DNA of 64,000 nt from Chloroflexota bacterium (lineage in GTDB: Bacteria > Chloroflexota > Dehalococcoidia > Bin125): assembly GCA_009838915.1 (NCBI GenBank), contig VXQT01000013.1, positions 199,746 to 263,745 on the forward strand. Direction: 5' to 3'. The position numbers were made by a program, and so were the translations under genes. The notes beneath the pieces are model-generated. The model made no database searches. It was not told the origin of the DNA and saw nothing but the letters and a program-made list of their open reading frames with translations. Of this stretch, positions 37,006-40,546 are shown one piece after another (within the stretch, counting starts at the first letter, position 1; each line of letters starts with the position of its first letter).

Positions 37006-37365
37006 ATGCCACGTGTCAAGGGCGGCCCGCGCGAGCGGCGTCGCCACAAGAAAGTCCTCAAGCAGACCAAGGGACATCATGGCGTTCGCAATCGCCTGTA
37101 CCGCCGGGCCTCCGAATCGCGCCTGCATGCGCTCTCCTACGCCTACGCGCACCGGCGCGAACGCAAGGGCGACATGCGCCGCATCTGGATTCAACGGATC
37201 AACGCTGCGGCACGGCTGAACGGTACGACCTACAGCCGCTTGATTCACGATCTCAAGCTTGCGGGCATCGAGATCGACCGTAAGGTGCTGGCCGAGATGG
37301 CGGTTCACGACCCGAACGGTTTCGCCGAGGTCGTTGAACAGGCCCAGGCCGCGCAGGCTGCCTGA
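37006..37365 (+). CDS. rplT: 50S ribosomal protein L20
   Basis: A 119-residue protein that binds 23S rRNA early in 50S assembly. The start [26 protein letters not shown] and the later [23 protein letters not shown] are diagnostic. It lies 25 bases after rpmI and ends before a strong terminator. In other bacteria L20 represses this operon by binding its leader; no obvious mimic was confirmed here. Confidence 0.97.
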
Positions 37366-37463: not shown

Positions 37464-37979
37464 CTAGGAGCTCGCCGCCAAGGCCGGTGCTCCGCTCGAC
37501 TCCGCCGCGAGTTCGGCGTCGTCACCCTCGGGTAGCTGGTTGAGCAGCCACTGCGCGCCGTCGTGATCGCGCAGCCAGGGCAGGATATTGGTCAGCGCGA
37601 TGAACTCGCGCGGGTGCAGCCCGTTCTTGATCGCGCCGAACTCAATCTCGCGGTTGCGATCGCGCCACTCGCCCGGCAGGTCGATGTGGGCGTCCTCGAA
37701 CGCGCGAGCGGCGACCCGGGCGTTCTCTACGTCAAGAGTGAGCAGCGCACGCACTCGCCTGACGGACAGTTCGTGGGCGAGGTCTATCGACGCCGCGCCT
37801 TCGCGCCGGGCCAGCGCGCGCATCACGCGGCGCAGCTCGACTGGCGGCAGCGCGGTCGCATCGTATAGCGCCGCCCCCAGTTCGACGTGATCACGGGCAT
37901 CGTTCAATCGGTGAGTGAGATCCCCGAGATCGAAGGCGCTGCCATAGTTCTCCGACAGGTTCGGATGCACGTAGGTCAT
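37464..37979 (-). CDS. Uncharacterised protein downstream of a CIRCE operator (171 aa)
   Basis: A soluble 171-residue acidic protein with no membrane segment or signal. It starts MTYVHPNLSENYGSAFDLGDL; the middle has two helical stretches (VELRRVMRALARREGAASIDLAHEL and REFIALTNILPWLRDHDGAQWLLNQL), and the tail is Ala/Ser-rich. I recognise no domain. The ATG at 37979 has GGAG six bases upstream. A well-matched CIRCE element lies 41-67 bases upstream, implying control by the HrcA heat-shock repressor. It might be a small stress protein or chaperone accessory, but only the regulation, not the function, is supported. Confidence 0.7.
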   Translation of the reverse strand: MTYVHPNLSENYGSAFDLGDLTHRLNDARDHVELGAALYDATALPPVELRRVMRALARREGAASIDLAHELSVRRVRALLTLDVENARVAARAFEDAHIDLPGEWRDRNREIEFGAIKNGLHPREFIALTNILPWLRDHDGAQWLLNQLPEGDDAELAAESSGAPALAASS

Positions 37980-38019
37980 GATCGACTCCGTTCCACGAAA
38001 TCTGCTGCTGAAGGCAATT

Positions 38020-38046
38020 CTGGCACTCTCTATGTAAGAGTGCCAA
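38020..38046 (-). promoter_or_regulatory. CIRCE operator (HrcA site)
   Basis: On the minus strand: TTGGCACTC, nine bases, GAGTGCCAG. This matches the consensus TTAGCACTC-N9-GAGTGCTAA at 15 of 18 positions and has the exact N9 spacing. The inner eight bases of each arm (TGGCACTC and GAGTGCCA) are perfectly complementary. It lies between pheT and the 171-aa gene, 41 bases before its ATG. Confidence 0.85.
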
Positions 38047-38112
38047 CTGCCGGTGCACGCTCAGGCAGGACAGTGAAAAGCACTGCACACTCCACGTGCG
38101 GTTAGCCAGGTT

Positions 38113-38134: not shown

Positions 38135-40546
38135 TCAGGAGTCGCGGAGCGTCGCCTGAAATTGCGATTGCAGCCGTCGCACGATGCCCCGACGAGCCTT
38201 CTCGACGTCGCGTTCGGTCAGCGTCCGATCAGGAGAACGGTAGTAGACGCGGAAGCCTATCGACTTCTGTCCGTCGGGGATCTGATCGCCCGTGTAGATG
38301 TCGAACAGTTCTACTGTCTCGACGAGTCCGTTGTCCATGATCGCCGCCTCGAGCTCGCCCGCGGGGCAAGCGTCGTCGACAATCAGCGCCAGATCCTCAA
38401 CCGCGGCCGGGTAGACCGACGGCGCAGCGATGACATCGGAGTCCTCGAGCAACGGCGCCAATGTGGAAATCGAGAGTTCCAAGGCGAAGACATCTCCGTC
38501 GATGTCGAATGCGTCGGCTGTTGTCGGCTGTACCTGGCCAATCACGCCGATGTCATGTCCGTTCACGCTGAGCCTTGCCGAGCGGCCCTTGACGAGCAGC
38601 TCGTCGTCCGCCCCGGAGCTAAGGTCGAACGTCACGCCCAGGCCCGCGCCCAGTTGCTCCAGTAGTCCCTTGGCATCGAAGAAGTCGAACTGGCGCGCGG
38701 AATCACCGTGCACAGAAGGGGGAGTCTCGCCGCCGAGCAGAGCGAGCAGCACTCGCATCTCCGTGGGCTGACGAGCTGTGCTGGGTGCGAATGTCTTGCC
38801 CACTTCGAAGAGGCCGAGCACGCCCCGCGCTTCGCGCTGATTCTGGGCATATGAGCGCAGGGCCCATGGCCGAAGGCTGGGACGCATCCGATCCCGCTCA
38901 GCGTTCATCGGATTGAGCAGTCGAACGGTGTCGGGTTCCTCCTCGCCCGACGACGACGTGGCCTCGACTTCCTGCTGACCAACAGTCACATAGGTGATGA
39001 TCTCACGCAGACCAAGGCCGCTGAGCAAGTCGCGGAGCTGCTCACCGAGATCGCGCTCGAGGTCGAATTCGGGGTCGGGAACCGCCCCGGGTAGCGGTGC
39101 GGAAGGCAGACTGTCGTAACCGATGATCCTACCGATCTCCTCGATCACGTCGTCTGACACATTGATGTCCGAGCGCCAAGGCGGGCAACTGACGGCAAAG
39201 CGATCCGGCGGGATCCAGCGATTGGAGATGCCAAGCGCCGAGAGAATTCCCCGAACATCCTCGACGCTTGGCAAGACGGAGAGAATCTGCTCGATTCGGT
39301 GCTGTGTGACGATGACCTGCGGAGCATGCTTCTTGCCGGGGTATTCGTCGGCAATCCCTGCAAGAGCCTGTCCGCCGGCGGTCTCGATGATCAATGCCGC
39401 CGCCCGGCGAGCGGCCAGTTCGGCCAACTCCGGATTGAGCGACTTCTCGAACCGTCGACTTGCCTCTGTGCCTGACTCAGTGTGTGTCGAACGGCTGCGA
39501 CGAATCGTCGCCTCCTGGAAGTTGGCCGTTTCGAGGAGCACGGTTGTGGTGGAGTCGGAGATTTCCGAGTCGGCGCCGCCCATAATGCCTGCCAGCGCGA
39601 CCGCGCGCTCCGCGTCGGCGATCACCAGGTCCTCGGGCTGCAGTTCAAGCCGCGATCCGTCCAAGAGCTCCAGTTGCTCAGCCGGTTGCGCCCGTCGCAC
39701 GACGATCCGATGCTCTCGCAGCACCTCGTAGTCGAACGCGTGCAGCGGCTGACCCCACTCAAGCATGACGTAGTTGGTCACGTCGACAATGTTGTTGATC
39801 GGGCGCATCCCGGCCGAGACCAGCACTTCCTGCATCCACTGAGGTGAGGGGCCAATGCGGACACCGTCGATCACGATGGCGGTGTATCTGGGACAGCCTT
39901 CGGGGTCTTCGATTGTCACGTCCGTGCGATCGGTAATCGGCGTGTCTGCTTCCGGATAGGTCATTGAGGGCTCAGTGACGACGCTGCCGTTCAGCGCAGC
40001 AACCTCGCGAGCAATTCCCAGGATCGAGAAGTGGTCGGGGCGATTTGGCGTCGGCTTGATGTCGAGCACCACATCGGCAAGCACATCAGCGAGCGGCGTT
40101 CCCGGTGCAGCGTCGGTTTCGAGCACGAGAATCCCCTCGTGCTCGTCGGAAAGTCCAAGCTCGCGTTCCGAGCAGACCATGCCCATGGAGGTGACGCCGC
40201 GGATCTTTCCGCGGCGAAGCTTGCGCAACTCTCGCGTGCTGGGATCGATCAGTTGGGCGCCAACCTGGGCAAAGGCGATCGTCTGGCCGGCCTCCAGGTT
40301 CGGCGCTCCGCAGACGACCTGAAGTGGCTCCTCCGCACCGAAGTCAACCGTGGCGAGCCGCAGACGATCGGCGTTGGGATGTGGATCGACTGCCGCGACG
40401 CGACCGACAACGACCTGGTCCCAGTCGCCGCCGCTGCGCTTGATCGCCTCGACCTCCGCTCCGGCCATGCTCAGCCGATGCGCCAACTCCTCGACTGAGA
40501 AGTCCCAGTCAACGTAGCTCGCCAGCCACTTGAGCGGGACGTCCAT
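38135..40546 (-). CDS. pheT: Phenylalanyl-tRNA synthetase beta subunit
   Basis: An 803-residue subunit of the alpha2-beta2 enzyme that charges tRNA-Phe. Domains in order: core start (PLKWLASYVDWDFS), an OB-fold tRNA-binding segment (RVAAVDPHPNADRLRL), B3/B4 editing domain that removes mis-charged Tyr, B5 (DINVSDDVIEEIGRIIGYD) and a C-terminal anticodon-binding domain (IGFRVYYRSPDRTLTERDVEKAR). The ATG overlaps the pheS stop by one base (TAATG). Confidence 0.96.
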   Translation of the reverse strand: MDVPLKWLASYVDWDFSVEELAHRLSMAGAEVEAIKRSGGDWDQVVVGRVAAVDPHPNADRLRLATVDFGAEEPLQVVCGAPNLEAGQTIAFAQVGAQLIDPSTRELRKLRRGKIRGVTSMGMVCSERELGLSDEHEGILVLETDAAPGTPLADVLADVVLDIKPTPNRPDHFSILGIAREVAALNGSVVTEPSMTYPEADTPITDRTDVTIEDPEGCPRYTAIVIDGVRIGPSPQWMQEVLVSAGMRPINNIVDVTNYVMLEWGQPLHAFDYEVLREHRIVVRRAQPAEQLELLDGSRLELQPEDLVIADAERAVALAGIMGGADSEISDSTTTVLLETANFQEATIRRSRSTHTESGTEASRRFEKSLNPELAELAARRAAALIIETAGGQALAGIADEYPGKKHAPQVIVTQHRIEQILSVLPSVEDVRGILSALGISNRWIPPDRFAVSCPPWRSDINVSDDVIEEIGRIIGYDSLPSAPLPGAVPDPEFDLERDLGEQLRDLLSGLGLREIITYVTVGQQEVEATSSSGEEEPDTVRLLNPMNAERDRMRPSLRPWALRSYAQNQREARGVLGLFEVGKTFAPSTARQPTEMRVLLALLGGETPPSVHGDSARQFDFFDAKGLLEQLGAGLGVTFDLSSGADDELLVKGRSARLSVNGHDIGVIGQVQPTTADAFDIDGDVFALELSISTLAPLLEDSDVIAAPSVYPAAVEDLALIVDDACPAGELEAAIMDNGLVETVELFDIYTGDQIPDGQKSIGFRVYYRSPDRTLTERDVEKARRGIVRRLQSQFQATLRDS

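Follow-up and report, generated by a model that had tools for sequence, protein, structure and literature searches.

We found that the gene for a 171-aa protein in an uncultured Chloroflexota bacterium of the class Dehalococcoidia is very probably controlled by HrcA. The original prediction of an HrcA-controlled protein is strongly, if indirectly, supported by sequence comparison, as a CIRCE operator precedes the gene in all relatives found, hrcA is present in the genome, and the CIRCE sites before groES, groEL and hrcA match that of the gene. The protein and its orthologues, designated here as family A, are very probably a heat-shock component that has not been described before. As a whole, these comparisons suggest that the HrcA-repressed family A protein is probably an accessory quality-control factor, such as an adaptor, holdase or co-chaperone.

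The CIRCE element and its surroundings

The window, that is, the whole 64-kb stretch of DNA analysed, contains the features listed in Table 1. On the plus strand, the CIRCE element reads CTGGCACTC-TCTATGTAA-GAGTGCCAA. As originally claimed, it matches TTAGCACTC-N9-GAGTGCTAA at 15/18 positions with a spacer of exactly 9 bases, and it is the sole match at ≤3 mismatches in the window (0 in 100 shuffles). The element lies upstream of the ATG, as originally stated, and reads on the same strand as the gene; the distance had been given as 41 bases and was 40 on recounting. At ≤3 mismatches, base composition predicts 0.009 matches in 64 kb and 0.39 in the 2.87-Mb genome. Therefore, one CIRCE match by itself is no proof, and conservation is. 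The claim that the site is too well matched for chance thus holds through conservation, but not through the match alone. Compared with the local CIRCE consensus, TTRGCACTC-N9-GAGTGCYAA, the window element has 1 mismatch, and a reversed-pattern control at 1 mismatch to this consensus gave 0 matches in 118 genomes.

Table 1. Features around the CIRCE element, in window coordinates.
Feature	Position	Strand	Remarks
rplT, convergent neighbour	37006..37365	plus	by inspection
Family A gene, 171 aa	37464..37979	minus	all-helical, no Cys, tail 155-171 disordered
CIRCE operator	38020..38046	minus	TTGGCACTC-TTACATAGA-GAGTGCCAG read on minus
Tentative -35 hexamer	38074..38079	minus	TTTTCA, by alignment and position, by inspection
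pheT, upstream neighbour	38135..40546	minus	by inspection of sequence

The tentative -35 hexamer starts 33 bases upstream of CIRCE in the window and 33-35 bases upstream in relatives, where the alignment, read by eye, mostly shows TTGTCx. Before groES, groEL2 and hrcA of the window genome, TTGCNN was seen by eye 36 bases upstream of CIRCE, and 7 bases separate the end of the sigma-70-like promoter from CIRCE. The -10 before the 171-aa gene is poorly conserved in the alignment by eye and allows no confident assignment. With so weak a -10, the predicted promoter does not pin down where CIRCE lies with respect to the start of transcription. In the 5' leader RNA, the CIRCE inverted repeat is also predicted to fold into an 11-bp hairpin, which may have an additional effect on mRNA stability. 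The stop codon of pheT is 88 bases from CIRCE, and in the genus of the window pheT and rplT flank a solitary family A gene.

Conservation of the gene and the HrcA regulon

The window genome (2.87 Mb, 95% complete) has 4 CIRCE sites within 3 mismatches of TTGGCACTC-N9-GAGTGCCAA. As read from their flanks, they precede groES-groEL, a second groEL, hrcA followed by grpE, and the 171-aa gene. The genome scan proposed with the original prediction thus found CIRCE sites matching the window site before groES-groEL, and also before groEL2 and hrcA-grpE. One copy of hrcA is present (PF01628, E 4.4e-33). An FmdB/Ruc-like zinc-ribbon gene (PF09723) was observed upstream of the CIRCE-bearing groEL2 (L003:634-975, G000:C37), with a signal-peptidase-like ORF between the two.

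Orthologues were found at 10 named MAG loci (Chloroflexi/Dehalococcoidia) with 74-91% identity, and CIRCE was located 38-40 bases before the ATG in all ten. Differences among 10 sequences of the gene were 0.154, 0.095 and 0.445 at codon positions 1, 2 and 3, and the family A gene is, as judged from such comparisons, real and under protein-level selection. When 13 members of the genus were aligned, the left and right CIRCE arms were 100% and 94% identical (mean pairwise), and identity was 48% in the spacer, 35% in the 60 bases upstream and 53% in the 40 bases downstream.

The reach of family A was determined by profile searches over up to 393 Dehalococcoidia genomes. It was present in all 15 species sampled from the genus, in a single species of a sister genus (G151), in a second taxonomic family, f2 (G043, G209, G374 and G309, 27-31% identity, and a broken copy in G176), and in a third (G070). 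The same searches did not find it in the other sampled genera of the window's family (G140, G232 and G241), and a phylum-wide search gave no convincing member outside the class, but short fragments with a best E of 1.5e-4. Family A is missing from most members of the class and so does not qualify as a core chaperone. In G140, 3 CIRCE sites occur, before groEL, groES and hrcA. Every family A member found has CIRCE upstream, with 0-2 mismatches to the local consensus; loss of the operator in relatives, which the original prediction had named as one refutation, was not seen.

Some of these operators vary. In G043, the CIRCE before family A is TTAGCAGTC-N9-GACTGCTAA (L077:462-488, G043:C43), in which both arms are changed at mirrored positions so that the dyad is kept; the other three G043 sites are canonical. 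Two CIRCE sites with the same change in one arm only were observed in G137 (G137:C69:2830-2856). These variants hint at a tolerated or altered HrcA specificity. Two tandem CIRCE copies precede family A in G151, G054 and G215 (L079, L080 and L029). The broken copy in G176 is a decayed family A gene with a truncated PAC2 gene behind a nearly perfect CIRCE (L081:4306-4971, G176:C4:36805-37470).

We classified 56 distinct CIRCE sites in the class. They precede hrcA (19), groEL (16), groES (14), family A (3), Ruc-like zinc-ribbon (2) and Hsp20 (1) genes, and one was unclear, so that 55/56 lie before genes of these kinds; three assignments (one hrcA, two groES) were made by reading frames by eye. 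The statement that CIRCE normally precedes groE, dnaK or hrcA therefore holds in this class, with rare Hsp20 and Ruc-like additions. As the CIRCE targets are nearly all chaperone-type, membership of the regulon strongly points to protein quality control.

Several single sites were observed alongside. The Ruc-like zinc-ribbon genes lie directly behind CIRCE at L202:551-917 (G070) and L214:148-535 (G022), and HrcA control of the Ruc-like family may extend to Dehalococcoidia. The Hsp20 gene begins 55 bases behind CIRCE (L210:1516-2074, G056). G022 also has a tandem CIRCE before groEL (L213, G022:C107:10333-10387). A perfect CIRCE in G025 (L203:1491-1517) has no adjoining chaperone; a Ser/Thr kinase-like ORF lies ~260 bases downstream, with a membrane protein on the other side.

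The family A protein, its relatives and its neighbours

The 171-aa protein had been described as lacking a known domain, which agrees with our searches: it had no Pfam or NCBIfam match, and structure prediction gave no fold match in the PDB. Among Pfam and NCBIfam profiles of chaperones and co-chaperones (Hsp20, GrpE, DnaJ, GroES etc.), none matched family A. Pfam matches of its distant relatives, to profiles such as Docking, TMEM174 and DUF3106, were far below cut-off and were rejected. The protein is acidic (pI about 5.1) and free of Cys, with no membrane parts predicted by eye and no obvious catalytic set among the invariant residues of the family. A first structure model, built from close relatives alone, was discarded as poor, with a pLDDT of 51. 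AlphaFold2 with 35 diverse sequences gave a pLDDT of 82, with all helices and a disordered tail, and residues 21-120 were at pLDDT 90 or above in ten-residue blocks. Neither Foldseek against the PDB (best E 0.17, TM below 0.45) nor a PDB sequence/profile search (best E 0.11) gave a significant match, and Foldseek against viral models gave none either. Weak resemblances to alpha-solenoids (TPR, HEAT and an Arp2/3 subunit), with TM below 0.45 and an rmsd of at least 5 A, were set aside. We infer a non-enzymatic binding role for the protein. In the literature on HrcA in Chloroflexota, we found no paper describing the family A gene.

A distant homologue, family B, occurs in other Dehalococcoidia. 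It is helical and shares with family A a homologous core, with profile matches in both directions, and an RLRAWL-type motif. In contrast to family A, it has an aromatic tail, mostly ending in a PWWKFW-like C-terminus, its loci have different neighbourhoods, and the loci examined have no CIRCE upstream. In a maximum-likelihood tree, 19 CIRCE-bearing sequences were split from 16 others by one branch with support of 100/99. On this tree, a single change therefore accounts for CIRCE control, which has since been retained. A further set of helical tandem-repeat proteins, group C, matched family B at 1e-12 to 1e-14, and two of the three group C proteins scanned had a DUF3106 match just over cut-off; group C was set aside, its repeats being of low complexity. 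Helical tandem-repeat proteins distantly like family B were observed at L172:4308-5183, L173:4589-5476, L174 and L175:3967-4647, near reductase-like and membrane genes, with a ClpP-like gene in L172 and apparently in L174.

The neighbours of family A are different in f2. Closely downstream of it, behind the same CIRCE, lies a PAC2-family gene (PF09754, E 1e-36 to 1e-45 for the intact copies) in G043, G209, G374, G309 and the broken locus of G176. This neighbour is a paralogue beyond the PAC2 genes elsewhere in those genomes. The next gene in G043 encodes an FKBP prolyl isomerase. In the genus of the window, two PAC2 genes are located elsewhere, without CIRCE. PAC2 is a protein family unrelated to family A, and is a neighbour only, with a common CIRCE in f2. 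Family A is probably co-made with the extra PAC2-family protein in this one lineage. No clear 20S proteasome emerged as a PAC2 partner: some genomes had only weak PF00227 matches (E 1e-9 or worse), and G309, G374, G070 and G151 had none.

Proposed role and known systems

HrcA regulons are small. The HrcA-GroEL cycle is established in other bacteria, where GroEL keeps HrcA active and unfolded protein diverts GroEL. By the same cycle, in unstressed cells HrcA dimers on CIRCE at the transcript start would repress the family A gene. When misfolded protein occupies GroEL, HrcA activity would be lost, and family A would be derepressed jointly with groES-groEL, groEL2 and hrcA-grpE. The family A product probably then acts beside GroEL/DnaK as an accessory quality-control factor. 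HrcA binding, heat induction and a chaperone-related role are what we infer for family A, the role from association. A general role in protein quality control is somewhat favoured.

The repeat might instead serve another unit, through pheST read-through or an antisense transcript, or act as an mRNA hairpin only and not as an HrcA operator. Its predicted leader-RNA hairpin is stable, and pheT lies close upstream on the same strand. However, the gene keeps its CIRCE in f2 and f50 genomes despite wholly different neighbours, and the arm sequence is kept beyond what pairing requires and is identical to that of the groE and hrcA sites. This explanation is therefore very unlikely, while a hairpin role alongside the operator role may coexist. 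A chance CIRCE match before a spurious ORF could be considered from the number of matches expected per genome, but it is refuted by conservation in all relatives, by substitutions falling mostly at third codon positions and by the empty reversed-pattern controls, and its probability is negligible.

Two further explanations concern the role of the protein. Instead of serving quality control in general, family A may modulate the HrcA-GroEL switch by feedback, for example by binding HrcA or GroEL and turning the response on or off, with HrcA control unchanged. In each genome that has it, family A is strictly coupled to CIRCE as a single copy, and the protein is acidic, Cys-free and helical, without enzyme signature, which is consistent with this. 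However, most members of the class run the same CIRCE regulon without family A, the PAC2 neighbour points beyond HrcA, and CIRCE is not linked to the related family B, so that we regard a modulator as unlikely. An adaptor for proteolysis or for the assembly of a protease complex with PAC2-family proteins appears similarly improbable. The extra PAC2 paralogue behind the CIRCE of family A in the f2 genomes, including the broken locus, and the FKBP gene that follows in G043 argue for it, whereas the weak or missing PF00227 matches and the CIRCE-free location of the PAC2 genes in the window's genus argue against it.

The reading of family A as an HrcA-repressed accessory quality-control factor agrees with the make-up of the regulon. 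Because the HrcA regulon is small and nearly all its members in the class are chaperones, a conserved new member strongly points to an undescribed proteostasis factor. More tentatively, family A might represent a new heat-shock protein class: a helical chaperone or adaptor that needs no ATP, has no kinship with known chaperones and has GroEL or PAC2-type proteins as partner. In this reading, HrcA control was acquired a single time within Dehalococcoidia, and family A and the non-heat-shock family B descend from common stock. The f2 loci also give bacterial PAC2 proteins a putative connection to heat shock, and the A/B pair illustrates how one change of control keeps a gene in the heat-shock regulon. 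Being small, Cys-free and without predicted membrane parts (by eye), the family A protein is simple to test directly.

Compared with the HrcA/CIRCE regulon of class I heat-shock genes (groESL, the dnaK operon and hrcA), the family A gene has the same operator, the same 9-base spacing and the same place in the 5' leader, and hrcA is present. Unlike those genes, it encodes a protein without a known domain and is confined to Dehalococcoidia in the searches made. A close parallel is Rv0991c/Ruc of M. tuberculosis, a small protein encoded by the fourth gene of an HrcA regulon that otherwise consists of GroES/GroEL genes (PMC7448276). Its function was at first not known, and it was subsequently shown to be a chaperone that is cysteine-dependent and redox-regulated (PMC7448276). 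Family A, in contrast, has no Cys, is wholly helical and shows no zinc ribbon; it is not a Ruc homologue. Ruc-like zinc-ribbon genes are separate from family A, with one near groEL2 in the window genome and two under CIRCE in relatives. The discovery of the Ruc chaperone was preceded by an earlier lead of the same kind, HrcA control of an uncharacterised gene.
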